Below the pieces are notes generated by a model, which saw nothing but the letters and a program-made list of their open reading frames with translations, had not been told where the DNA came from and ran no database searches. This document shows, piece by piece, positions 10,922 through 40,782 of a stretch of DNA of 41,393 bases (position 1 is its first letter; the number at the start of each line of letters is the position of its first letter). The DNA is taken from contig PMBR01000051.1 of NCBI GenBank assembly GCA_003152995.1, positions 1-41,393 of the forward strand, read 5' to 3'. The position numbers were made by a program, and so were the translations under genes. Source of the stretch: Chloroflexota bacterium (GTDB lineage: Bacteria; Chloroflexota; Limnocylindria; Limnocylindrales; CSP1-4).

Positions 10922-12114
10922 GCCGCGGACTCCTCGTAGCGCGTCCATTTGCCCAGAACACGGGAGACGTACGCCCTGGCCGATGACGGAACGGCGCCGG
11001 CCTTCCGCACTGTGCCGGGCCCTTTGCTGTACGCCGCCAGGGCCATGTCGACCCGTCCGAAACGCTTGAGCTGAAGGGCCAGGTACCTGGCCCCGCCGTT
11101 CAGGTTCTGCGCAGGATCGAGGGCGTCCTTGACGCCCATCGCGCTCGCCGTCCTGGGCATCAGCTGGGTCAGACCCTTCGCTCCGCAGCTGGACACCGAA
11201 TTCGCATGGAAGCTCGACTCGTTCGAAACCAGCGACGCGAGGAGCAATGGATCGATGCCGTTTGCGACGGCGGCGGCCCGAATCTCGGGGGCGTACGGGA
11301 TCTTTGAGGCGACGGCGTCGAAGCGGGCCAGAACGCTCTGGCTCGACTCCCAGGATGTCGACCCAGGATCGGAGACGGAGGACGGGCTCGCCAGGGAGCT
11401 CGGCAGGGCACTTGTCTGTGAAGTCGGGCCGGGCAGGCGCCCGGACTTCAGATACTGCGTCGGGTCGACCGCTGTTCCGCTGGGGGAGTACAGGCCGAAG
11501 TGCAGATGGGGCCCGGTCGAGTTGCCGGTGCTGCCTTCGGTACCGATCTCCTGGCCGCGACTGACTCGATCTCCGACTTTCACGTCGAGGTCCGGATTGA
11601 GATGCCCGTACAGGGTCACGTAGCCGTCGTCGTGGCGGATCTTGACGACCACCGCGCCGTCGGACTCGCGACCGGCGTAGGTCACCGTGCCGTTGGCCGC
11701 GGCGAGGATCGGCGTCCCGTTCCTGGCCGCCAGGTCGATGCCGGGGTGGTAGTGGGCGTAGTGGACGCCGTCGACGGTCGCGGCCGGTTCCATGGCCAGG
11801 CTCGTGGGCCCGAAACCCTGGGTCAGCTTGCCCGACGGCAGCGGGCTGCCAAACCCGATGCCGCCCGTGACCCGGATGCCCGTGTAGATCGTGTTCGCGT
11901 AGGCGCCGGCGGCGTTTTCGACTGTGTCGGCGGTCGACGAAGTGGACGAGACCTCGGCGAGGACGCCCGCGAAAGGCGAGCCGCTGTTGAGCGCTTGGGC
12001 CGCCGAACCGACCGGCCCGCCCGCCGACGTGGTCGACTGCCAGTTCGGATCGACACCGCGCATGAGCGAATCGAGTTGGGCGATGCGGGAGACGAAGCTC
12101 CCATACCCCGCCAT
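10918..12114 (-). CDS. Two-domain peptidoglycan hydrolase: M23 (LytM) endopeptidase + SLT lytic transglycosylase
   Basis: The M23 domain spans residues ~95-220 with its metal and catalytic residues intact: HxxxD (H123, D127), GH171 and HLH (203-205). The SLT domain spans ~270-395 with catalytic E299 (LVSNESSF), AKGLTQLMPRTA and AYSKGPGTV, where most SLT proteins read AYNAGPG. It would cut both the peptide and glycan parts of peptidoglycan, presumably so that rod and hook can cross the wall. It thus fills the place of FlgJ. The track starts far upstream; the ATG at 12114 overlaps the fliJ stop by one base (TGATG). No signal peptide is visible, so export would have to be through the flagellar apparatus or another route. 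Sandwiched between fliJ and flgB, it is clearly part of the operon. Confidence 0.9.
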   Translation of the reverse strand: MAGYGSFVSRIAQLDSLMRGVDPNWQSTTSAGGPVGSAAQALNSGSPFAGVLAEVSSTSSTADTVENAAGAYANTIYTGIRVTGGIGFGSPLPSGKLTQGFGPTSLAMEPAATVDGVHYAHYHPGIDLAARNGTPILAAANGTVTYAGRESDGAVVVKIRHDDGYVTLYGHLNPDLDVKVGDRVSRGQEIGTEGSTGNSTGPHLHFGLYSPSGTAVDPTQYLKSGRLPGPTSQTSALPSSLASPSSVSDPGSTSWESSQSVLARFDAVASKIPYAPEIRAAAVANGIDPLLLASLVSNESSFHANSVSSCGAKGLTQLMPRTASAMGVKDALDPAQNLNGGARYLALQLKRFGRVDMALAAYSKGPGTVRKAGAVPSSARAYVSRVLGKWTRYEESAA

Positions 12115-15889: not shown

Positions 15890-17637
15890 CGGCGGCGTTC
15901 CTCTTCACGGAGCCAGCCATGCATCAGTCCGGCAAGGGCTTCCGGTCGCTCGTCGGCGACCATCTGCAGGCGTTCCTGGATGCGGGCCTGCGGAGTGGCC
16001 CCGGGCATCTCTGCCGGCGCCGCCTCCGGGGCTCCGATAGCCGGCGCGTTCGACCGAGCCTGGGCCGGCAGGTAGTTGCCGGCGGCCGGCACGGAGCCGA
16101 GATCGAGCACGGTTTCATCGGCACGTCGCCCGAGGGAGCGCGAGTTCAGGAAGAACAGGAGCAACATGAACAGCCCGAAGACCGCGCCCAGGATCGTGCC
16201 GCTCATTTCGCCGATCGTCTTCATCATGTCCGGCGAGGCAGAGGCGGAACCCGCGGCGCCTGAAGCGCCGGAAGCGCCGGAAGAGCCGGAAGCGCCGGCG
16301 GCGCCGGCAGCGCCCGTGGGCCGCGCGGCGAAGGTCACGGCATCGACTGCAACCACGTCGCCTCGGGTCGTGTCGGCCCCGATGGCGGCAGCGATGTCTG
16401 TTTTGAGCGTTTCAGTCTTGACGCTGCCCAGGGCGGCCTGATCGATCAGGACGGCGACCGAGAGACGCTTGACCACGCCGGGCTGGGTGATCACGTGCTG
16501 GACGGTTTGGGAGACGCTGTAGTTGACCGTCGTCTCCTGGTGAAGGTATCCGCCGGACGAAGTGGAGCCGGCGTCCGCTGTGGCCGAGGCGGCGGCGTTC
16601 GGCGAGGCGCCCGGTGAGGCCGAGGCGGCGGCGTTCGGCGAGACGGAGGGAGCGGCCGTCGTGGTCGCCCCTGTGTCGGTGCAAACGCCCGGGTAGGAGG
16701 GCAGGCCGGGAACGTTGGAATTGGTGCCCGGGATGCCGCAGGCGCCCGAAGTGGAACCCGCGCCGTACTGCTCGTAGATCTGGTGGATGCTCACGGGCGG
16801 GTCGCTGCCGGCCGGTGCGTAAGTCGTGATGTCCTGTTCGACCTTGCTCGTGTCCACGTCGGCCGAGACGGCAACAGAAGCGTGGCCCGATCCCAGAGCA
16901 GCGTCGATCAGGGCTGCGATCTTGGCGGCCGCTTGCTGTTCGACGAGGTCCTTGGCCTGCGCGGCAGCCGTGTCGGCCGAGTCCGCGGCGCCCGCCAGGA
17001 CGTGGCCCGAGTCGTCGGTCACTACGACGTTGCCGGCCGCGAGGCCGGAGACCGAGCTGGCGACGGTGTTGACGATCGCGCGAACGAGACCGTCGGATGC
17101 CGACTTACCGGCGGACATCGTCAGCACCACCGAGGCGCTGGCAGGAGTGTCGTCGGTGGAAAGGACACCCTTCTGAGCGAGGACGACCGCTACGCGAGCG
17201 CTGCCCACGCCTTGCATGGCCTGGATCGTCTTGGTCAGCTCGCCTTCGAGCGCCCGCTGGTAGGTGACCTGCTGATCGAACTGCGAAGCGCCGAACTGCT
17301 GGTTGTTGAAGAGATCCCAACCCTTGGTGTCGCTGCTGCCGGTGCTTACACCGGCGCCCGCGGCCGCGATCCTGGCATCGCCGAGCGAGTCGACCGGGAC
17401 CATGATCGTGGTCCCCGCGTCGGCCAGCTGATAGGCGATGTTTGCCCCGCGGAGCGCACTTTCGATCGTGCCGGCGTCGGACGCCGCGAGGTTGGTGAAA
17501 GCGGGCGTGTAGTCGGGCTTGCTGGCGAACATCACCAGGACGGCGATCGCCGCAACCGAACCGAGGGCGGCGAAGATGATCCCGATCCGCTGGATGATCG
17601 AGAGTTGCTTGAGGACCGACTGGACCTGCTCGTTCAT
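15886..17637 (-). CDS. fliF: Flagellar MS-ring protein FliF
   Basis: FliF builds the membrane ring on which the flagellum is assembled. The 583-residue product has an N-terminal transmembrane helix (~18-37) and a YscJ-like ring-building region (YQRALEGELTKTIQAMQGV; ARVAVVLAQKG). Next come a FliF C-terminal periplasmic region and a second transmembrane helix (~500-520). A cytoplasmic tail of ~60 residues should dock FliG. Two low-complexity insertions are notable: a Ser/Pro/Ala run (SPNAAASASPGASPNAAA) and a GASGSSGASGASG run just before the second helix. The start lies 13 bases after the fliE stop, with only a weak GAGCG upstream. Confidence 0.95.
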   Translation of the reverse strand: MNEQVQSVLKQLSIIQRIGIIFAALGSVAAIAVLVMFASKPDYTPAFTNLAASDAGTIESALRGANIAYQLADAGTTIMVPVDSLGDARIAAAGAGVSTGSSDTKGWDLFNNQQFGASQFDQQVTYQRALEGELTKTIQAMQGVGSARVAVVLAQKGVLSTDDTPASASVVLTMSAGKSASDGLVRAIVNTVASSVSGLAAGNVVVTDDSGHVLAGAADSADTAAAQAKDLVEQQAAAKIAALIDAALGSGHASVAVSADVDTSKVEQDITTYAPAGSDPPVSIHQIYEQYGAGSTSGACGIPGTNSNVPGLPSYPGVCTDTGATTTAAPSVSPNAAASASPGASPNAAASATADAGSTSSGGYLHQETTVNYSVSQTVQHVITQPGVVKRLSVAVLIDQAALGSVKTETLKTDIAAAIGADTTRGDVVAVDAVTFAARPTGAAGAAGASGSSGASGASGAAGSASASPDMMKTIGEMSGTILGAVFGLFMLLLFFLNSRSLGRRADETVLDLGSVPAAGNYLPAQARSNAPAIGAPEAAPAEMPGATPQARIQERLQMVADERPEALAGLMHGWLREEERRR

Positions 17638-30559: not shown

Positions 30560-31483
30560 TCACCGACCTTGCCAACCTCGAACCGTGGCTGCGGGGCGCT
30601 CGTCGATCTCTGAGAACGACGTCAAGACGACGAGGCCCTGCCGCGTCCTGACCAGCAGCTTCCCGTCGTAGGCCAAGGCCAGCGACCCCGGAGCCAGCGC
30701 CTCGAATTCGGCCAGCAGCGCCGGATGTCGCGCCGCACGCGCCTCGAACACCCTGATCGCTCGGGTCCCAATCCGACAGCTCACGCCCTGAGTCCGAACG
30801 CCGAACGATCGGACGCGCCTCAGGATATCGTCGTCGTCCATCGCGGCGAGGTCAATGTGCATGTCCTCATCTCGTCGGGAGTAGTACGACCCGGCGCCGG
30901 CCTGGTCTTCTCCCACGTAGCCGAAGGCCGAGTCGATCATGGTGCACATTCCCGCCCGGAAGACCGTCGCTTCGAGCCGGAAGACCATGTGGTAGAGGAG
31001 TCCAAGGTCAAGGTCGTCGCTTACCTCAATTCGCTCCTGTCGTATGAGCCGCCCGGAGTCCACGCCGACGCCCATGTGATGCATCGTCGCGCCCACACGC
31101 CTCCGCCCGTTGAGGAGGGCGCCGTTGAGCGGGTGCAGGCCTCGCATCTCCGGCAGCGGTGATGGATGAACGTTCAGGAAGACGCGTCCAGGCCGGGCCA
31201 GCCTGCTCACCGGCAGGACGATCGGGCAGCCGTTCGACACCAGCACATCGAACGGCGTGCGTGCCAGCTCTTCGACGAGCCGCGCGCTGTCGGCCGGCGC
31301 GAACGTCTCGAAGTCTCGACCGAGCTCCCTCAACCGCTCCTCGAAATAGCTACCTGAGACGGCCCAGGTCCACTCGATTTCCAACTCCGCGAAGCTAAGG
31401 GCAGCCTCGAACACGAGCGGTCGGTTGCCCACGAATAGCACCCGCCGGAGCGATGGTCGGGTCCCGGCCCGTCTCGTCGTCAC
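30560..31483 (-). CDS. Formyltransferase-family protein, probable sugar N-formyltransferase
   Basis: The ~307-residue product has the formyl-transferase catalytic triad in the usual spacing: N104 and H106 in LNVHPSPLPEMRG, and D142 in GVGVDSGRL. It would transfer a formyl group from N10-formyltetrahydrofolate. It could be mistaken for methionyl-tRNA formyltransferase, but it sits with two sugar-type aminotransferases, an acetyltransferase and a glycosyltransferase. A nucleotide-amino-sugar substrate is therefore more likely. The track begins at 31555; I prefer the GTG at 31483, 10 bases after the acetyltransferase stop with AGAGG seven bases before it. It is the last gene of the leftward block. 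Confidence 0.8.
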   Translation of the reverse strand: MTTRRAGTRPSLRRVLFVGNRPLVFEAALSFAELEIEWTWAVSGSYFEERLRELGRDFETFAPADSARLVEELARTPFDVLVSNGCPIVLPVSRLARPGRVFLNVHPSPLPEMRGLHPLNGALLNGRRRVGATMHHMGVGVDSGRLIRQERIEVSDDLDLGLLYHMVFRLEATVFRAGMCTMIDSAFGYVGEDQAGAGSYYSRRDEDMHIDLAAMDDDDILRRVRSFGVRTQGVSCRIGTRAIRVFEARAARHPALLAEFEALAPGSLALAYDGKLLVRTRQGLVVLTSFSEIDERPAATVRGWQGR

Positions 31484-31493
31484 CTCCGCACCT

Positions 31494-32489
31494 CTATCCG
31501 TACTCGCCGGCCCGATAGGCTGGGAAGTAGTCCACCGAGTTGCGGCCGGCGGCAAGTCGACCAGTCGCCGCCCGCGTTAGCGATCCGTACCGCTCGGGAG
31601 ACAGAATTCGCCCGCACAGGTACGCGAGCCTGGAGCCCGTGGCCCAGCCGGCCTTGAATTCTGTGAGGCCGTCGCGGGCCTGTGCTTCGCCGATCCCGGC
31701 TCCGCCGCCGAGATCAAGCCAGCGGAGGCGGCCTCGGAAGTGCTCCAGCGCCGCCCAGTGAAGCGCGTACGCCGCGCCAAGCGAGTAGCCGCTCTCGGTC
31801 GTTGCGGCCAGATGGCTGTACGCGACACCGCCGGAGTTTCCTTCCGAATCCTCGAGGCAGATCGAGCCTTCCGGCCGCGATGGCGCGTACCAGAGATGCT
31901 CCCCCACTACCGTCTCGCCGTGGAGTGCTCGAAACAAGACCACTCCCGGCACGCGCATCTGGGCGTCGAAGGCCGCGGCCGAGAAGCTCCTGATTCCCTC
32001 GATTCCGTGGCGCGCGATGAGCCCCGAATACAGCCGGGTCCACTCCTCGACATGAGCCTCGGGCTTCGTGCTGACCTCTACCCGGAGTTCCCTCAGTGCC
32101 CGCCGCGCGTAATAGCGATGATGTTTCGACGCGACCGCTCGGTCCGATTCGGCCAGATCGACCACGAAATGCTTCTTGAACCGCCTGACCACGTCGAAGA
32201 TGCTCTTCAAGAGCGCTTCGTCATAAGCGCCGAAAGGATCCGTCACGAGAGTCACCGAGACGAGGCGGCCGGCCAGAGAGTCCAGGTCCGCGCGGAGCGC
32301 GGGCCAGTCGCCGCAGGCAAACAAGGGGTAGGGACCAATCGCGTCGCGCTCTTCGGTGCCGGGAATCGGTCGCTCGAGGAGCCATCCACGGCTCGCATCC
32401 AGGGCTATCGGCCGGCCGAACTCAGCAAGGGCGCGGGCATATGCAGGATGGGCGTAGCCCACCGGCCCGAAACCTCCCCCTGCGGTCAC
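31494..32489 (-). CDS. GNAT/FemAB-like acyltransferase
   Basis: The ~331-residue product resembles the Acetyltransf_6 (BioF2-like) group. The key region is about 130-300: FKKHFVVDLAESDRAVASKH, HHRYYARRALRELRVEV, VLFRALHGETVVGEHLWY and GAAYALHWAALEHFRGR. A GGGAG motif precedes KAGWATGSRLAYL. Such enzymes often acylate amino sugars or peptides in surface polysaccharide clusters. The start is a GTG overlapping the stop of the upstream aminotransferase gene (GTGA), so the track's earlier start is not needed. With the adjacent aminotransferases it could make an N-acylated amino sugar; the exact substrate is unknown. Confidence 0.75.
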   Translation of the reverse strand: MTAGGGFGPVGYAHPAYARALAEFGRPIALDASRGWLLERPIPGTEERDAIGPYPLFACGDWPALRADLDSLAGRLVSVTLVTDPFGAYDEALLKSIFDVVRRFKKHFVVDLAESDRAVASKHHRYYARRALRELRVEVSTKPEAHVEEWTRLYSGLIARHGIEGIRSFSAAAFDAQMRVPGVVLFRALHGETVVGEHLWYAPSRPEGSICLEDSEGNSGGVAYSHLAATTESGYSLGAAYALHWAALEHFRGRLRWLDLGGGAGIGEAQARDGLTEFKAGWATGSRLAYLCGRILSPERYGSLTRAATGRLAAGRNSVDYFPAYRAGEYG

Positions 32490-33535
32490 GTCCTGCCTTC
32501 TTCGGCAGCGACGATCGACGCGATCAAATCCATGTCGGCTTCGTCGTACCGCTGATCGCACGGCAGCGTCAGGATCCTCGACGACAGGGCGTGACTGGCC
32601 ACGAAGCTGGACGGTACGAAGGTTTCGATCTGCCAATGGGTCGGCGCGAAGATCTCGTGCGCGAAAAGGGCCTGGCGGACTCGGTCGCGGCCACTCAGCC
32701 GTACCGGAAACCCCAGCGGCACGACCTCATCGGGGAGCCGCGGGAACAACGCCAGCGCGGTCAGGGCAGAGGCGAGTCGAAGGTAATTCGCCCGTCGCCG
32801 CTCGGCCACGTCCGCGTAGTCGATCGCCCCGGACAGGAGGCGGTACGAGAGCTCGCTCATGGCGTACGGTCCCACCGGGGCCCCGTCCTCAGCCCGACGA
32901 AACAGGCCATACCAGTCGCGATCTCCGGACCCCCTATCGAAAGCGGCTCGGCGACGCGCGGCCTCGAGGGCGAGGCACCACCAATCGTCGGGAGGCGGAA
33001 CCATGGCCGGTCGGTTCAGCGTGCGTGACCGGAAACCGAGGATCCCCCCATCCGGCACGCCTACGAACTTGCGTGGGCTGAACACCACCGCATCTGCGTT
33101 GGAGCCGGCGCCAGAGGTCAGGAGCGCCTGGCTCGCATCCTCCAGCAGGAAAGCCCCGCGATCGCGGGCGGCGGCCATGAGTCCGTCGGGGGCTATGAAC
33201 CCGAAATAGTCGATGACGACGACGACGTCACCAGCTCCGACCTCGTCGAGCCATGTCAGGCCTGCGGGTTGCAGGGCCTCACCGACCGGATACCAGGCCA
33301 CAGGGACGCCGCCGCGGCTCACGCCGTCCAGAAGCGCCGCGCACAGGTAGGACGGTAGCCAGACACGCCCGGGGTGCAAGGCCTCCACGAGGATGGCCAC
33401 AGCGGATCGGGCGTTGACCGTTGCCAGGAACGAGCCGGACAGGAAGCCCGGCAGAGGTCGCGCGGCAGATCGTCGCTCCGCAGCCGCGCCGGCGTCGGCC
33501 AGGCCGAAGAGTCCGCCGATCAGGCCGCTCGACAC
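32486..33535 (-). CDS. PLP-dependent DegT-like aminotransferase (divergent)
   Basis: The 349-residue product has the fold-type I aminotransferase core: VWLPSYLCAALLDG, VVVIDYFGF, LLEDASQALL (PLP-contacting Asp) and SPRKFVGVPDGG (candidate Schiff-base Lys). It is shorter and more divergent than the neighbouring DegT enzyme, with a RKFVGVPDGG motif where DegT/StrS proteins usually read TKP..GEGG. The start is GTG with GAGGAG upstream, the Shine-Dalgarno straddling the previous stop. It likely aminates a keto-sugar or a related small molecule; the acceptor cannot be told. Confidence 0.78.
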   Translation of the reverse strand: MSSGLIGGLFGLADAGAAAERRSAARPLPGFLSGSFLATVNARSAVAILVEALHPGRVWLPSYLCAALLDGVSRGGVPVAWYPVGEALQPAGLTWLDEVGAGDVVVVIDYFGFIAPDGLMAAARDRGAFLLEDASQALLTSGAGSNADAVVFSPRKFVGVPDGGILGFRSRTLNRPAMVPPPDDWWCLALEAARRRAAFDRGSGDRDWYGLFRRAEDGAPVGPYAMSELSYRLLSGAIDYADVAERRRANYLRLASALTALALFPRLPDEVVPLGFPVRLSGRDRVRQALFAHEIFAPTHWQIETFVPSSFVASHALSSRILTLPCDQRYDEADMDLIASIVAAEEGRT

Positions 33536-33544
33536 CGACGCTCC

Positions 33545-34735
33545 TCAGGCGGCATGTTGCGGGCATCCTTCGACGGCGATCGCGTCGCGGCGTCGCGAGC
33601 GAACGGCCACGGGTCGCGCGAGTGCCTTTTCGATGATCGAACACACGAGACCTCGTTCCGCGTCGGTCAACTCTTCGAACAACGGGATGCAGAGGATTCG
33701 CGAGTATGCGGACTCGGTGACCGGCAGCGGTCCGTCGACGAAGGCACGGTAAGCCGGCATCGTGTGGCATGGGCGGAAGTAGCGCTTCGTCTGGACGCCT
33801 CGGTCGGCGAGGCTGGCCTCGACGCGATCGCGCGTGAACCCGTCCTGAAACAAGACCGCGAAGTCCTTGTAGGTGCTCCGATCCGCCGACGACACCCGCT
33901 GAACGGAGATCCCAGGCAGCGCCGCGAGCCAATCGCGGTACGCGACGACGTGGCGAAACCGCGCGGCCAGCGCATCCTCCACGCGCTTCATGGTCAGAAG
34001 CCCGAGCGCCGCATGGAGTTCGGAGAGTTTGCCGTTGAGACCGACGAAGCGTGAAACGTAGTCGTTCTGGAAGCCGTAGGCGCGCAGGTATCGGATCCTC
34101 TCGGCCAGCTCCGGGTCGTTGGTGGCCACCATCCCGCCCTCGCCGGACGTGACAGGCTTGGTCGCCGAGAGGCTGAAGACCTCCGCCGTTCCGAACGTGC
34201 CCACATGCTTCCCGTCATGCAGAGAGCCGTATCCGTGTGCTGCATCGAAGAGGAGCGGTATCCCGGCTTGCGCCGCAAGGCCGACGAGTGCGTCGATGTC
34301 GGCGGGGTTGCCGAACACATGCGTAGCGACGATGGCCCCGACGCCCTCCAGACGACGACTGATCGCCCGCGAGTCGACGTTGAGCGTCTCCGGATCGATG
34401 TCCACGAAGACGGGCCGGTGGCCGTTCCACAGGATGGCATTGACCGTCGAGTTGAAGGTGAATGAAGGCACCAGAACGCGGCTCGCCGGAGGCAAGTCGA
34501 GAGCGCGAACGGCGAGCATGAGCGCCACGTCTCCGCTGGACGCCGAGAGCAGGTAGCGGGCGCCCAGATACGCTCGGCTCTGATTCTCCAACTCGACCGC
34601 CAGGGGTCCGAAGTTGGAGAGCATTCGGCTGGACCAGATCCTGTCGAGCTGTTGCACGTACTCGCCAAGCGGGGGAAGCCACGGCCTGGTTATGGGAATC
34701 GAGTAGCCGGCGGGCGGCGTGTGCCCGGGTCTCAT
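33545..34735 (-). CDS. DegT/DnrJ/EryC1/StrS-family sugar aminotransferase
   Basis: This 396-residue enzyme has clear family motifs: SSGDVALMLAVRAL, VLVPSFTFNSTVNAIL, VFVDIDPETLNVD, FDAAHGYGS and the PLP-Lys motif SLSATKPVTSGEGGM (catalytic Lys). RAYGFQNDY and LNGKLSELHAALGL follow, and the C-terminus has YFRPCHTMPAY. Such enzymes convert nucleotide-linked 4-keto (or 3-keto) sugars to amino sugars. The track's 565-residue ORF runs too far upstream. The ATG at 34735 overlaps the methyltransferase stop (ATGA). It would provide the amino group modified by the acetyl- or formyltransferases downstream. Confidence 0.92.
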   Translation of the reverse strand: MRPGHTPPAGYSIPITRPWLPPLGEYVQQLDRIWSSRMLSNFGPLAVELENQSRAYLGARYLLSASSGDVALMLAVRALDLPPASRVLVPSFTFNSTVNAILWNGHRPVFVDIDPETLNVDSRAISRRLEGVGAIVATHVFGNPADIDALVGLAAQAGIPLLFDAAHGYGSLHDGKHVGTFGTAEVFSLSATKPVTSGEGGMVATNDPELAERIRYLRAYGFQNDYVSRFVGLNGKLSELHAALGLLTMKRVEDALAARFRHVVAYRDWLAALPGISVQRVSSADRSTYKDFAVLFQDGFTRDRVEASLADRGVQTKRYFRPCHTMPAYRAFVDGPLPVTESAYSRILCIPLFEELTDAERGLVCSIIEKALARPVAVRSRRRDAIAVEGCPQHAA

Positions 34736-35367
34736 CTCACCGCCTCCACGATCAGGTCCGTCTCGGGCCTGGTCTCGAGCCCAGTGAGGTCGGAATGCGA
34801 CGACTCTCCCCACCCGACACGCTGGACCTGCGCGAACCCAACGCGCCCGAGCCGGAGGCGAAGCTCGCTCTCGTTGTAGAGGTACTGGTGCTCCCATCCC
34901 CTGAACGACACGTTGATGAACGCCACTCGCGAATCCACCCAGCCGAAGGCCTGGTCCTGGATCCAGGGTTGATCGCGCCAATCGGGAGAGCTGTAGCGGC
35001 CAAGAATGCTCTCGAGGTCGGGCATGCCGAGGCGCATGACGCCGCCGGGCCGGAGGACTCGATACGCCTCGGTCATCAACAGCTGCCCGTCCGCGAGCCT
35101 CAGGTGCTCGAACATGTGCTCGGAGTGAATCCTGTCGACCGAAGCATCTGGAAAAGGCAGGCCGTAGCGAAGGTCGAGCGTCAGGTCCGGCGTGCCCCCG
35201 ACGTCTACGTTCACCCAGCCATCCAGAAGCACCGTGCCGCAACCAAGGTGAAGACGGAGAGGCGTCCGCGTGAGGAACCGCCGGGCGGCAACGTACCCTT
35301 CGATCACTTCCCTCTCAACAATGCTGCCGGGAACGCACACGGCCGTCGGAAGATTGAGTTCGTACAT
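34732..35367 (-). CDS. SAM-dependent methyltransferase (class I)
   Basis: The 211-residue product has motif I as LRLHLGCGTVLLDGWVNVD and an acidic DLRYGLPFPDASVDRIHSEH. The region MFEHLRLADGQLLMTEAYRV then LRPGGVMRLGMPDL is a pattern common in methyltransferases of polysaccharide and glycan loci. It may methylate a sugar or the carrier. The start ATG at 35367 has GGGAGG nine bases upstream and lies 17 bases after the glycosyltransferase stop. The earlier start in the track is not supported. Substrate unknown. Confidence 0.88.
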   Translation of the reverse strand: MYELNLPTAVCVPGSIVEREVIEGYVAARRFLTRTPLRLHLGCGTVLLDGWVNVDVGGTPDLTLDLRYGLPFPDASVDRIHSEHMFEHLRLADGQLLMTEAYRVLRPGGVMRLGMPDLESILGRYSSPDWRDQPWIQDQAFGWVDSRVAFINVSFRGWEHQYLYNESELRLRLGRVGFAQVQRVGWGESSHSDLTGLETRPETDLIVEAVR

Positions 35368-35384
35368 TTCGGAAAGCCTCCCAG

Positions 35385-37424
35385 TCAGGCGGCCGCGGGA
35401 CGGTGCCGTGCTTCCAGGTAATGGCGGTAGACGACATGCTCGAGGTTGCCCATGCGGACGCCCGCCTCGAGCATCCGGCGCCACAGGTTCCAATCTCCAG
35501 GTTCCATCAGGCGCCATGCATCAGGGTCGTAGTGGAAGAACCTCAGGTCCGCCGCGTAGAGGACGGAGCCGTGGCAAAGGCCCCCGAGCCGCGGCGGCCA
35601 GTCCCCGACCAGGCCCCACGAGCCGTCGCCCTTCTCCATCAACGATTGCCCGTACACGAGTTCGAGCCGGTTCTCGAGCGCTACTGCGAGCAGGATCTCG
35701 ACATGGTCCGGCGTGAACTCGTCGTCGTCGTCCAGCGGCGCAATCCACGCCCCCCGGGCCAGGTCGAGAGCGTGGTTCACGGCGTGGGTTCCGGCCACCT
35801 GCCAGCGTCTCTCGGGATCCAGTGGGTACGTCGGTTTCGGCAGGTTGACGAACTTGACACGCGGGTCGTGCACGGTGGCGGCCGCTTCGATCGTCTCCGG
35901 CGTGGCCCCGTCTCCCACCACGAGGATCTCGATGTTGTCGTAGGTCTGGGCCAGTGCAGAGTTGATTGAGCGTTCGACGAGTAGCCGACCGCGATCAAAC
36001 GTCGGAATCCGGATCGTCACGAGAGGGCGGTTTGCCGATTCCTCGGGCCAGCAGACGTCGCGGTCGCCGCGCAGGCGCTCGAGAGTCGAGCGTTCAGTGG
36101 CCGCCCTCTTTCGGACGAGTTGACGGTGGGCGAGGTTCGACGTTGACTCCGTCGCCAGAGCCGCCTCCCTCTCCGCGAGCTCCGACGTCTTCATCCCCGG
36201 AGCCACCCGCCTCAGGGCTCCGCGGCCGGCGTGATCGGCCGCCCAGCGGAAAGCGTCGGCCCACTCCCCGACTCGCTTTCGGACGTCGTATTCCGCCAGA
36301 ACGCGCTCGCGGGCCCGGCCCGCGAGATCCTCACGCATTTGAGACGAGGCGGCCACGCGGCGCAATTGTTCGCGCCACTGCGCCTTGTTGCGGGCCAGCA
36401 GACCATCGACGCCATCGCGGATCACGTCGTACGGACCGCCGCCCATCGTTCGAGAAGCCACGGTCGCCGCGCCGGCGAGCGAGTACTCGAGCCAGTGCAA
36501 CTCGGAGTGGCAGCGGCTGAAGTCGTCCTGTCCGACAGGCGCAAGCCCGATAGCCGGCCGTGCTGAGGCGAGCCGGCGCGCAAAGCCACGGACGTCGGGG
36601 ACGTACGGCAGTGCCTCGTCCACGACGGCTTGGACAGTGGGTTCGTCGCTGCCGAGCCAGATCCGGCGCCCGCCCGTCGATCGAGCCGTCTCGTCGACGA
36701 TGTCCCGGCAGATCTCGTAGTCGTGGAGGCGTGCTGCAACGCCGTAGTACATGAATGACAGTGGCCTTCGCCCGTCGTCCGGGACCTCCGGCTCGTACCA
36801 GGTCGCGTCGACCGCGTTCCGGACCACTCGAACCGCTGCGTTGTAGCGGCCGAAGCTGCTTGCCAGCGCGGGCGTCGTTACCGTTACGAGATCGGCCCTG
36901 CGGGCGAACCGCTCGATCAGGTCCAGGTCGCCCTGGATGCGCCGGTGGAAGCCGAGCCAGGGCTGAGGCGCGAGCAGGTTGTCATCCAGCTCATAGACCA
37001 TCGCCCGCCCCCGGAGGACGGTCGGGTCGTTTTCGATCGAGGTCAGGAGCGAGCGGATGATGCGGTCGCGACTGACGATGGCGTGGCCGGTCGCCTGCGC
37101 ATGCCCGGCCAGCCCGGCCTCATCCGGGGTCGCAAAGTCGCAGACGTCGCAGGCATGGACCGTCCCGTACCAGCGCCGGAAGACAACCACATCGGCCCAC
37201 TCGATCGGCGAGAGGTCGCACGTGGCGACGCCGTCGCGGATCGCGTCGTCGAGGCGATCCGCATACACCGGCGGCACCTGGACGCTGTAGTCGTTCAACT
37301 CTCCCCAGGTCCGCATCTCGACGCCGTGTTCGAGCAGGAGATCGCGGTATGTGCCCAGACGCACGGAATCGCATGGCCCGGCGTCCACCGAACCGTAGAC
37401 GAGGACGCGCAGAGGTTCGCCCAT
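35385..37424 (-). CDS. Two-domain glycosyltransferase with a C2H2 zinc-finger-like motif
   Basis: The 679-residue product fuses two glycosyltransferase modules. Residues ~1-400 look GT-B/GT4-like (MVYELDDNLLAP; VTVTTPALASSFG; YGVAARLHDYEICRDI; LEYSLAGAATVAS). Residues ~467-679 are a GT-A/GT2 domain (VTIRIPTFDRGRLLVERSIN, DXD-type LDDDDEFTPDH at 564-574). Within the first module lies Cys92-x2-Cys95-x12-His108-x5-His114, the spacing of a C2H2 zinc finger. It probably adds sugars to flagellin or a lipid carrier. The track starts at 37523; I prefer the ATG at 37424, though a hairpin covers the bases just before it. Confidence 0.85.
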   Translation of the reverse strand: MGEPLRVLVYGSVDAGPCDSVRLGTYRDLLLEHGVEMRTWGELNDYSVQVPPVYADRLDDAIRDGVATCDLSPIEWADVVVFRRWYGTVHACDVCDFATPDEAGLAGHAQATGHAIVSRDRIIRSLLTSIENDPTVLRGRAMVYELDDNLLAPQPWLGFHRRIQGDLDLIERFARRADLVTVTTPALASSFGRYNAAVRVVRNAVDATWYEPEVPDDGRRPLSFMYYGVAARLHDYEICRDIVDETARSTGGRRIWLGSDEPTVQAVVDEALPYVPDVRGFARRLASARPAIGLAPVGQDDFSRCHSELHWLEYSLAGAATVASRTMGGGPYDVIRDGVDGLLARNKAQWREQLRRVAASSQMREDLAGRARERVLAEYDVRKRVGEWADAFRWAADHAGRGALRRVAPGMKTSELAEREAALATESTSNLAHRQLVRKRAATERSTLERLRGDRDVCWPEESANRPLVTIRIPTFDRGRLLVERSINSALAQTYDNIEILVVGDGATPETIEAAATVHDPRVKFVNLPKPTYPLDPERRWQVAGTHAVNHALDLARGAWIAPLDDDDEFTPDHVEILLAVALENRLELVYGQSLMEKGDGSWGLVGDWPPRLGGLCHGSVLYAADLRFFHYDPDAWRLMEPGDWNLWRRMLEAGVRMGNLEHVVYRHYLEARHRPAAA

Positions 37425-37554: not shown

Positions 37555-37803
37555 CTAGTGGCGAATGGGCTGATCGCCGCCGTCGAGTGCGCGGACGATC
37601 CGATCGTCGTTGAGAAGCCTCAACTCTCGCCGGATCTGCTCCAGCTGGCACTGGAGCGAGATGAGAAGCTCGCGGTCGTCAATCAGGATTCGCTCGAGAC
37701 GTTGTTGAATGGCTCGGACCGAGAGCGGGCTCAGGGCAGCCGCCAGAGTCTCGGCAGCTACCTGCCGCTCCATGGACTGGGTGGCGAGACCGCGCGGGAT
37801 CAT
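37555..37803 (-). CDS. Small helical protein after fliS, possible FliT-like chaperone
   Basis: This 82-residue reading frame is hidden inside a longer ORF of the track. Its ATG at 37803 overlaps the fliS stop (ATGA), which strongly favours translation. The product is mostly helical and charged, with a coiled-coil-like AIQQRLERILIDDRELLISL and CQLEQIRRELRLLNDD. Genes directly after fliD-fliS commonly encode FliT-type export chaperones, so that role is likely by position. Sequence alone is too short and divergent to prove it. Confidence 0.6.
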   Translation of the reverse strand: MIPRGLATQSMERQVAAETLAAALSPLSVRAIQQRLERILIDDRELLISLQCQLEQIRRELRLLNDDRIVRALDGGDQPIRH

Positions 37804-38279
37804 CGCCGCGCGCTGCCGGCATACGATCCGGCCCCGACGAGCGACCCAACAGGCATTGGCGCACGAAGAGAAGGAACGGGTTCCAGCTCGGGCGCCGCCT
37901 CGGCAATTGCCGAGGCCGGTCGGGACGCCAGTTCCTGCCAGGCGTCGAGCAGGCCGCGCAGAACCTTCAAGGCATCTTCGGTCGGCTTGGGATCCTTGGA
38001 CACGTTCCCGGCGACCAGACGACGCAGGACGTAGTCGTACAGCTGATCCAACTGTATGGCGATCGGTCCGGCGGACAGGTCGAGCGAGCCGCGGAGCGCG
38101 GTGACGATCTCCTGGCATCGGATCGACGAGCGGTGGGCCCTCTCGATCTCGTGACGTTCGAGCCAGGCCAGGTGCTGCGCCCCAAAACGGATCGCGCCCT
38201 GGTAGAGCAGCACGATCTGGCCGGCGCGACTGGCGCTGACGACCTGCGATGTTCGGTACGTGGCGGTCGGATCGAGCAT
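37800..38279 (-). CDS. fliS: Flagellin-specific chaperone FliS
   Basis: FliS binds the C-terminus of flagellin and keeps it from polymerising before export. The ~159-residue product starts MLDPTATYRTSQVVSASRAG and has QIVLLYQGAIRFGAQHLAWL, EIVTALRGSLDLSAGPIAIQ and LYDYVLRRLVAGN, close to the standard FliS pattern (Y..N.v.ta.p..li.mLYdgai). A Pro/Ala-rich tail of ~40 residues is extra. I prefer the ATG at 38279 because GAGG lies nine bases upstream; Met at 38294 is the alternative. A putative sigma-28 promoter lies 58 bases upstream. Confidence 0.93.
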   Translation of the reverse strand: MLDPTATYRTSQVVSASRAGQIVLLYQGAIRFGAQHLAWLERHEIERAHRSSIRCQEIVTALRGSLDLSAGPIAIQLDQLYDYVLRRLVAGNVSKDPKPTEDALKVLRGLLDAWQELASRPASAIAEAAPELEPVPSLRAPMPVGSLVGAGSYAGSARR

Positions 38280-38550
38280 TGATCGGGGCCTCATGGCTTC
38301 GACTATGGAGGCCGCCCGTGGGCGGTTCCACCTTAGTAGTCGGCTCGGCGATGGGGCCCCTTGACCCTTCGTGGCCTCCCGTCACCACCAGTGCCGCGGG
38401 GTCGGCCAACAGCGATCCGCCGCCGGGCGGCTCCCTGCCAGGCACGCCAGAATGATCGACACGCACGCGCGACCGCCCGGCGGACAGCCCGGATTGGGCG
38501 CGCCGCCACTCGAACGACTGCCCCGGTTTGCGGTTTCGGCCCGGCGAGCT
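38280..38550. other. Intergenic region between fliD and fliS
   Basis: These 271 bases hold the putative fliS promoter (38337-38364) and a CCGCCC/GGGCGG dyad in the fliS leader. Several GC-rich short dyads near the fliD stop may terminate fliD transcription. No convincing gene is present; the short plus-strand ORFs here overlap fliD codons and lack start signals. Confidence 0.5.
38337..38364 (-). promoter_or_regulatory. Putative sigma-28-type promoter of fliS
   Basis: On the minus strand: TCAA (38364-38361), 16 bases, GCCGACTA (38344-38337). Predicted start near 38330. Confidence 0.5.
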
Positions 38551-40782
38551 CTAGCTGCCCGTGGACGAGCTGCCCAGACCGCTGCCTGAAGAAGACGTCG
38601 ACGAGGTCGAGATCCCAAGCGTGGCGTTGATCTGCGCCGACTGGGCCTGCAACGTGGCCAGGGTGGCCTCCATCGCGGCGTACTGCGCTTCGATCATGGT
38701 CTGGTAGTTGTCGATCATCTCCTGGCGATCGGCTTCCTGCCGCTGGAGGTCGCTGATCTCCGTGGCCAGGCCGTCGGTGTGGGCCTGGATGTAGGAGTTC
38801 TTGCTGCTCGGATCCTCGAGAGTCTGGAGCTTCGTCAGCACGGCCGCGAACGGGCCGCTCGAACCGTCAAGGAGCGAGGCAACCTGGCTCGCGTCGGAGT
38901 TGAGCGCGGCCGTCAGCTTGGTCGTGTCCAACTGCAGCCGATTGGTAGTCCCGACCGCGGCTCCGATGTTGCCGGTGTTGAGCCCGATGGCCCCCAGCGA
39001 ATTGAGCGTGCCGGTACCCGTCGTCGCGAACAAGGTCTCTCGCAGGCCCAGGAGAAGCGATCGAGCCGTCGGATCCGACGCCAGCGGAGCAGCCGTACCG
39101 CCGGTGCCGCCGGACGTGCCGGGCGTCTCCGCCGTCGCCTGGTCGAGGAGATCGCCCAGCGCATTGAAGCTGGTCACGAACTGGTTGAGCGCGTTCGAGA
39201 CCGCCGTCTGGTCGACTCCGATCGTGAGGGTCTGTGCCAGGCCGAGCGGACTCAGTTTCGCGATATTGATCGTCACGCCATCGATGGCGTTGCTGACGGC
39301 GTTGGTGGTGCTGGTGATGGACCGGCCATCCACGGTCACCTGGGCGGTCAGGCCGATCGTCTGGGCGTTCGTCGTCCCGGGGGCGAGCTTGAGCGCCGCT
39401 CCGAGCGTGCCGCTGGTGTCTTTGATGTCCATGGCGACCGCGCCGGTGTCCTTGCGCGCCAGGATCAGCTGGTCGTTGGTGCGATCGACCGAGGCGACCA
39501 CGCCGGCCGCCGAGTTGTTGATCCGGGTGATGAGGGCGGACATCGAATCGCCGGTGGTGTCGTAGGCGATGTCGACGCCGTTGATCGTCAGCACACCCGT
39601 TTTGGTGGACGTGAGACCCGTCAGGCCGGCCGTGTCGAGGGAACCGTTCATTCGGGCTACGCCCAGGTTGGTCGTGCCGGTGAGTGTCGGGTTGGTCGCG
39701 TTGGTCGCCTTTGCATTGGCTATGCCGAGCATGCCCAGGGCATTGCTCGCGTCGCCCGCGGCCCCGAACGAAAGCGAATGCGTCAGACCCGCGCCCGAGA
39801 TGGAGAACTGGAGCCGGTTGCCGACGGCGGACGCATCGACCGTCGCCGTCGCGTCGGCGCCGACGTTGACGCCGCCCGCCCGGAGCTGGCTCTGGATCGC
39901 GGCCGAGAAGCCCTGCAGCGTCTGAGTCAGCGTGGTCTTCGTAGGGTCGCCGACGGTGTAGTGGACCAGGATGCCGTCCACGACGGCGGTGATCTGGCCG
40001 GCCGTCACGGAGCCCGGCAGGTTGAGGGACGAGAGGACCGGGTCGAGGTACGACGTACCGGTTATTGCGGCGTTCTGAGCGCCCGACACGCCCTGTGTGT
40101 CCAGCCCGAGCGCTTTGGCCGCGTTGCTCGTGTCGCCGATATCTCCGAACGAGATGTCGTGGCCGGTGGCGTTGCCGCTGATCGAGAGTTGCAGCTGTCC
40201 GCCGACAATGGCTGCCGAAACCGTGGAGCCGGCGTCGCTCATCTGAAGTTGCGACTGCAGCGCGCCGGCCAGACCGTCCATGACCGTCTGGAGCGAGGTC
40301 GTGGTCGGATCGCCGACGGCGAACTGGACCGCCGTGCCGTCGACGGTGAGGGTCATGTTCCCCGTCGTGATCGGCGTGGCCAGGTTTGCGTTGCTGAGTT
40401 TCAGAGAGGTGTCGACGTTGCCGGTGACGGCTGCGCCCATGGAAGTCGTCGAGGCCGCGCGCGTGGCTGTGGCCAGGCGATCGACCGAGACCTGGTATTG
40501 CGACACGGGCGTGCTCGTGGCGGCCGTGGCGGTGAAGACCGTGGGATCGGCAGAAGTCGCGACGCGGCTGGCGCCTGCGGCTGTGACGGTGAAGAGCTTC
40601 ACCTTCGTCACGAGATCGTCCAGGGCCGTGCCGACCTGGCTGTAAGCGGCCTTCTGGGAAGTGAGGTCGGCTTCCTTGCTCTGGAGTTCGGTGAGCGGCT
40701 GCTTCTTGACCGCAACGAGGGCATCGATGATGCCCTGCGTGTTCAGACCAGAGATGACGCCGCCGAACTGGATTGTCGACAT
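38551..40782 (-). CDS. fliD: Flagellar hook-associated protein 2 (filament cap) FliD with duplicated central domain
   Basis: FliD caps the growing filament and folds flagellin into place. The N-terminal D0/D1 part begins IQFGGVISGLNTQGIIDALV; the C-terminal coiled-coil (DLQRQEADRQEMIDNYQTMI, then EAQYAAMEATLATLQAQ) is typical. The protein is 743 residues, well above the usual 450-500. Two homologous segments (~125-246 and ~247-372) share VDGxxVxxxVGDPTxTxLQTxxxGxxxAxQSQL and a xxLQxSIS...xSFGxxGDxSNA pattern. A more divergent third copy (~378-470) begins GVLTINGVDIAYDTTGDS. The start ATG has GGGAG upstream and a strong sigma-28-like promoter. Confidence 0.93.
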   Translation of the reverse strand: MSTIQFGGVISGLNTQGIIDALVAVKKQPLTELQSKEADLTSQKAAYSQVGTALDDLVTKVKLFTVTAAGASRVATSADPTVFTATAATSTPVSQYQVSVDRLATATRAASTTSMGAAVTGNVDTSLKLSNANLATPITTGNMTLTVDGTAVQFAVGDPTTTSLQTVMDGLAGALQSQLQMSDAGSTVSAAIVGGQLQLSISGNATGHDISFGDIGDTSNAAKALGLDTQGVSGAQNAAITGTSYLDPVLSSLNLPGSVTAGQITAVVDGILVHYTVGDPTKTTLTQTLQGFSAAIQSQLRAGGVNVGADATATVDASAVGNRLQFSISGAGLTHSLSFGAAGDASNALGMLGIANAKATNATNPTLTGTTNLGVARMNGSLDTAGLTGLTSTKTGVLTINGVDIAYDTTGDSMSALITRINNSAAGVVASVDRTNDQLILARKDTGAVAMDIKDTSGTLGAALKLAPGTTNAQTIGLTAQVTVDGRSITSTTNAVSNAIDGVTINIAKLSPLGLAQTLTIGVDQTAVSNALNQFVTSFNALGDLLDQATAETPGTSGGTGGTAAPLASDPTARSLLLGLRETLFATTGTGTLNSLGAIGLNTGNIGAAVGTTNRLQLDTTKLTAALNSDASQVASLLDGSSGPFAAVLTKLQTLEDPSSKNSYIQAHTDGLATEISDLQRQEADRQEMIDNYQTMIEAQYAAMEATLATLQAQSAQINATLGISTSSTSSSGSGLGSSSTGS

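Follow-up and report, generated by a model that had tools for sequence, protein, structure and literature searches.

The window examined here, that is, the whole stretch of 41,393 nucleotides of contig PMBR01000051.1 (assembly GCA_003152995.1) from a Chloroflexota bacterium, encodes a two-domain glycosyltransferase (GT), here called P0001, with a predicted C2H2 zinc finger inserted in its GT-B module. As judged from sequence comparison, this finger is a conserved module and not a chance motif, and it is shared with bacterial and phage relatives of the enzyme. P0001 is probably a protein glycosyltransferase which modifies self-assembling proteins and whose structural zinc finger helps in docking the acceptor; zinc occupancy, catalysis, the protein acceptor and the docking role are all predicted. 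The features concerned are as follows.

35385..37424, minus strand: P0001, two-domain glycosyltransferase of 679 amino acids (aa), GT-B with zinc finger and then GT2 (translation and Pfam)
36213..37415, minus strand: GT-B module, PF13524 / phrog_7162 type, which all finger relatives have in common (profile match, AlphaFold2 model and Foldseek)
37083..37151, minus strand: putative C2H2 zinc finger, C92-x2-C95-x12-H108-x5-H114 (motif, conservation and predicted fold)
37140..37151, minus strand: C92 and C95, putative zinc ligands of the beta hairpin (kept without exception in the 29 bacterial modules, and found in 74 full-length copies from phages)
37083..37103, minus strand: predicted zinc ligands H108 and H114, on or just past the finger helix of residues 102-112 (conservation; helix by DSSP of the model)
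35625..36020, minus strand: GT2 (GT-A) domain, following the GT-B module that bears the finger and fused to it, with DDDD at the DxD position (PF00535)

Conservation and predicted fold of the finger

The arrangement of the four putative ligands was noticed in an earlier, sequence-only reading of this DNA, and its coordinates and spacing proved exact on the minus-strand translation, in which the start is the ATG at 37424 and the ligand codons lie at 37149-37151 (C92), 37140-37142 (C95), 37101-37103 (H108) and 37083-37085 (H114). Amongst the translated frames of at least 100 aa in the window, one match to the motif was found against about 0.015 expected from composition. At the DNA level, seven pattern matches were found in the genome, three of them in one GT family on the same contig, against five for the reversed-pattern control. 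As the genome count does not beat this control, conservation had to decide, and it was family conservation that led to the rejection of a chance motif, though the DNA pattern counts alone stay near the control.

The bacterial set comprised 29 distinct GT-B modules from 14 genomes of one family and two genera. C92, C95 and H114 are invariant in all 29, and H108 is present in 28, the sole exception being an island-borne module in genome G045 with an H-x4-H pair and a longer spacer. The 2-12-5 spacing was found in 27 of the 29 printed segments (a regular expression gives 25, since in two rows it picks a His further on). Amongst these modules the entropy at residues 85-116, ligands excepted, averages 2.43 bits, compared with 1.46 for the whole domain; invariant ligands with a variable remainder are, on the alignment, the mark of a metal site that carries a surface free to change. 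When bacterial and phage sequences were aligned together, C92, C95 and H114 were present in 30 of 30 rows and H108 in 29, and no other column at residues 87-119 came near that. The T-G preceding H114 is also conserved, and the remaining finger positions vary. Retention of the four ligands amongst homologues was the check that the sequence-only reading had proposed, and the loss of Cys or His in orthologues, which it held to be fatal to its claim, did not occur.

AlphaFold2, run on the 29-row alignment of the GT-B module, gave a model with a predicted local distance difference test score (pLDDT) of 93.3 and a predicted template modelling score of 0.91, the finger itself reaching a pLDDT of about 95. 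By DSSP the finger consists of a strand (90-92), a short second strand (98-99) and a helix (102-112), and it is inserted between strand 79-83 and helix 123-132 of the N-terminal Rossmann domain. Structure prediction of this region, also suggested earlier, thus returned a confident classical beta-beta-alpha fold in the N-terminal domain. In Rossmann domains the loops after the parallel strands face the cleft, where GT-B enzymes bind their acceptor; the finger follows such a strand and should therefore lie on the cleft-facing acceptor side.

The enzyme assignment has several supports. Foldseek with the whole model placed GT-B enzymes on top (GlgM, BshA, PimA and HepE, E-values down to 7e-15), and the module has both the two Rossmann-like domains and the GT4-type C-terminal signature of GT-B enzymes. 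Pfam matched the latter (PF13524) at residues 310-388 (E 1e-6, over the cut-off) and GT2 (PF00535) at residues 471-600 (E 7.5e-20), and no family was named by the Pfam or NCBIfam scans for residues 1-165. The GT-B module is accordingly classed as a glycosyltransferase by modelled fold and signature, with sugar transfer as its predicted activity. The P0001 GT2 stretch LDDDDE reads QANNDE in the G029 orthologue (L091), in which the activity of this domain may have been lost or changed.

To our knowledge, C2H2 fingers with the classical 12-residue spacer are taken as a eukaryotic hallmark, Ros/MucR being the known bacterial form. P0001-type fingers share with classical eukaryotic ones (PF00096, U1/JAZ) the spacing, the beta-beta-alpha fold and, in many members, a hydrophobic residue three before the first His (L105 in P0001, L/A/V/F in others), but they are single, acidic and placed inside an enzyme, and the aromatic core position is not fixed: position 99, four after the second Cys, is T/A/F/S in bacterial members. 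Matches to known families are weak. PF00096 was matched in five of the 29 bacterial members (best E 0.038), P0001 itself not amongst them, and weak matches were found in some members to zf-C2H2_OTU1_C and in three to zf-C2H2_jaz; single short fingers often give low Pfam scores. The isolated finger (34 residues) was predicted at a pLDDT of 85, and its Foldseek matches in the PDB were mostly eukaryotic C2H2 fingers, many with a root-mean-square deviation near 1. A profile search of PDB sequences likewise returned the BCL11A, MBP-1, HKR3 and OTU1 fingers over residues 70-124, though weakly. The Ros/MucR finger, also of C2H2 type, has a 9-residue spacer and a larger domain (PMC9779718), and this type was excluded for P0001 by the 12-residue spacer and the small finger fold.

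Distribution and gene neighbourhood

GT-B enzymes of the PF13524 / phrog_7162 type (GT4-like) resemble P0001 in the C-terminal domain, the SELHWLE...G region and the GT-B fold, but the more distant relatives examined, from Chloroflexota, Actinomycetota and cultured phages, carry a short loop where the finger sits in the P0001 subfamily. Amongst them a single chance match to the regular expression was found (L134), outside the loop context. Only fingerless relatives were found outside the home family in 400 Chloroflexota genomes and in 397 genomes of the phylum to which the actinobacterium L012 belongs; no match at E 1e-40 was obtained in 349 genomes from the phylum of Azospirillum (L063), a scan made without a positive control. 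Cultured phages and plasmids yielded distant relatives only, and those inspected were fingerless. In the tree a single long branch (support 100/99) separates all finger-bearing sequences from the rest, which is consistent with a single gain of the finger, although the deep order within the finger branch is uncertain owing to long branches. On these sequence data the inserted finger is confined to a single GT subfamily, a point that, like the phage branch and the two further finger modules described below, goes beyond the sequence-only reading.

A phage branch of the subfamily was found on 79 IMG/VR contigs (L176-L254), with relatives of 34-40% identity over the full module; a second scan, made with a wider profile, returned 78 contigs, almost all of them already in the first set. 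The phage loci were found by the C-terminal peptide patterns SELHWLE and AD[LV]VT..TP, so the presence of the finger in them is not a circular result. A finger of the form C-x2/4/5-C-x12-H-x1-H is present in all 74 full-length phage copies (some are listed as C-x6-C, since the regular expression prefers an outer Cys). The GT starts at a median of 106 base pairs (bp; range 77-175) behind the major capsid gene in 78 of the 79 contigs, the remaining contig beginning inside the GT, and the identity of the capsid gene was given by phrog_1357 (E 1.6e-45) and PF25209 (E 1e-11). The phage copies share about 48% identity or more and hence represent one lineage, not 78 independent cases. This lineage is uncultured and aquatic, the longest contigs being about 41 kilobases (kb).

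In the bacteria the gene is associated with flagella. At seven loci, 141-165 bp separate the end of the finger GT module from the flagellin domain downstream, and at others the finger GT adjoins fliS; P0001-type genes lie beside fliS in most genomes, and a second paralogue group adjoins flagellin, not fliS. Amongst 177 genomes of the class, a finger GT was found in 14, flagellin in 18 and both in 13; flagellin is thus present in 13 of 14 genomes with a finger GT against five of 163 without, the exception being G045. The co-occurrence has a Fisher P of 0.002 within the genus and of 7e-15 in the class, the class figure being inflated by shared descent.

The contig carrying P0001 holds two more in-frame finger copies, found by the genome pattern search about 6 to 8 kb upstream and beyond the window. 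Both sit in one 850-aa protein made of two tandem GT-B modules with one finger each (CTECETAFAGPSDFEMHLRASGH, CMDCSIRTFDRALIRSHTEAAGH), the modules being placed about 5 kb upstream; in sister genomes the two modules are encoded as separate genes.

C82:42644-45196 (L008:5645-8197), minus strand, outside the window: 850-aa double finger GT-B protein, between flgL and flagellin, directly upstream of flagellin

Genome G045, which lacks flagellin, encodes two divergent finger GTs (L173:7577-10005), with a tyrosine integrase at 10934 and a serine recombinase at 16155 on the same stretch, a hint of mobility. No phage copy close to this island-borne GT was found in IMG/VR.

Possible roles of the finger

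In two unrelated settings this enzyme module is found next to a gene for an abundant protein that self-assembles, flagellin in one and capsid in the other, and the simplest account would be a cytoplasmic protein glycosyltransferase acting on its neighbour. One zinc ion would hold the small beta-beta-alpha finger rigid, as a scaffold with freely varying exposed positions, and the finger would help in docking of the acceptor protein, alone or together with its chaperone. In flagellated Chloroflexota the acceptor may be flagellin or FliS-flagellin, and in the phages a virion protein, whether the major capsid protein or some other. Sugar transfer to the acceptor protein would fall to the GT-B module; in P0001 the fused GT2 domain may extend the glycan, the amino sugar being supplied by neighbouring genes. 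A further and more tentative proposal is that these enzymes form an undescribed class of protein glycosyltransferase, in which the inserted eukaryote-type C2H2 finger might be an exchangeable acceptor-reading module, acting on flagellin in flagellated Chloroflexota and on capsid in aquatic phages.

Flagellin glycosylation by P0001, as proposed from neighbourhood and co-occurrence, would liken it to Maf and other flagellin glycosyltransferases. A passage of PMC11339370 describes Maf proteins as flagellin glycosyltransferases, and Maf identity was ruled out for P0001, for which the Pfam and NCBIfam scans give GT-B and GT2 families only. In mycobacteriophages the capsid and tail tube subunits of the virion bear glycans, which have been linked to glycosyltransferases of the phage (Freeman et al. 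2023, as cited in a passage of PMC12619734). The finger-GT phages, which may be comparable, differ from these in having the gene fixed directly behind the capsid gene and in the zinc finger. No paper describing a zinc-finger glycosyltransferase was found in the literature, subscription journals lying mostly outside the coverage, which is no proof of absence.

Several observations weigh against acceptor docking through a zinc finger. That two genes are adjacent does not prove that they encode an enzyme and its substrate. In the class, five flagellated genomes (L156-L160) have flgL and flagellin with no finger GT between them, so the finger GT is not needed for flagella, and flagellin shows no difference in Ser/Thr content between genomes with and without it. 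The zinc site is itself predicted, AlphaFold2 does not place zinc, and the isolated finger gave Foldseek E-values above 1, perhaps owing to the shortness of the query. Lastly, the phage His pair is only one residue apart, unusual for a C2H2 site, so that P0001 (2-12-5) matches the classical pattern C-x2-4-C-x12-H-x3-5-H and the phage members do not.

This last feature, together with the predicted status of the zinc, would suit an explanation without metal, in which the four residues are kept for another reason such as a disulphide and functional histidines. Such an explanation is very unlikely, given the confident finger fold, the matches to true C2H2 fingers and the retention of all four ligands together, with an unchanged 12-residue spacing, in bacteria and phages alike. 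The main rival is a finger that serves purely as a structural zinc site bracing an enlarged N-terminal loop, with no part in substrate choice. It agrees with the conservation of the ligands and the T-G when all other finger positions vary, and with the presence of strongly conserved GT-B motifs in the chain that holds the finger, but fingerless relatives manage without such a loop, and paralogues of one genome differ strongly in the finger part, as a recognition surface would; on balance it is considered rather unlikely.

Recognition of flagellin, a partner or nucleic acid was the role suggested by the sequence-only reading, and the first two fit the neighbourhood. C2H2 fingers often bind proteins, and the finger might bind not the acceptor but another partner, such as FliS, the export gate or a second GT, and bring the enzyme to the assembly site. 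The common position beside fliS favours this, whereas the second paralogue group does not share that position, FliS is not expected in phages, and no partner common to both settings is evident; binding of this kind is judged unlikely. Nucleic acid fared worse. The spacing C-x2-C-x12-H-x5-H is also that of U1/matrin and JAZ fingers, in line with the three weak zf-C2H2_jaz matches, and an enzyme guided by DNA or RNA, or one that glycosylates them, could be imagined. The fingers, however, have a mean net charge of -2.1 in bacteria and -0.5 in phages, and the genes are located in flagellar and virion structural modules with no DNA or RNA function near the bacterial ones, making this the least probable of the alternatives and a most improbable one. 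Docking of a protein acceptor remains the preferred role.

Genes around P0001 and implications

The region of P0001 also holds fliF and fliG, and the gene order is fliD, fliS, P0001, methyltransferase, DegT and, further on, the formyltransferase-like gene.

38551..40782, minus strand: fliD, filament cap (PF07195 E 1.4e-37, PF02465 E 7.6e-18)
37800..38294, minus strand: fliS, flagellin chaperone, directly upstream of P0001 (PF02561 E 1.6e-29)
34732..35460, minus strand: methyltransferase, downstream of P0001, likely for glycan tailoring (PF08241 E 4.6e-9)
33545..34660, minus strand: DegT/DnrJ sugar aminotransferase, likely for sugar-donor synthesis (PF01041 E 2e-90; TIGR04427 E 1e-76, under its cut-off)
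30560..31555, minus strand: formyltransferase-like protein, possibly serving an N-formyl amino sugar (PF00551 E 5.5e-18)

The genes downstream of P0001 plausibly form a glycan-synthesis island within the flagellar region, and the methyltransferase, DegT and formyltransferase-like genes (30560-35460, minus strand) suggest a flagellar glycan with an N-formyl amino sugar.

The significance of the finding lies in a predicted C2H2 finger that forms part of the catalytic domain in an enzyme of bacteria and phages and is kept there by selection. If the finger reads a protein acceptor, it would represent a small module by which cytoplasmic glycosyltransferases pick self-assembling proteins. The flagella of these uncultured Chloroflexota would then be predicted to be glycosylated, and so would the virions of an uncultured lineage of aquatic phages.
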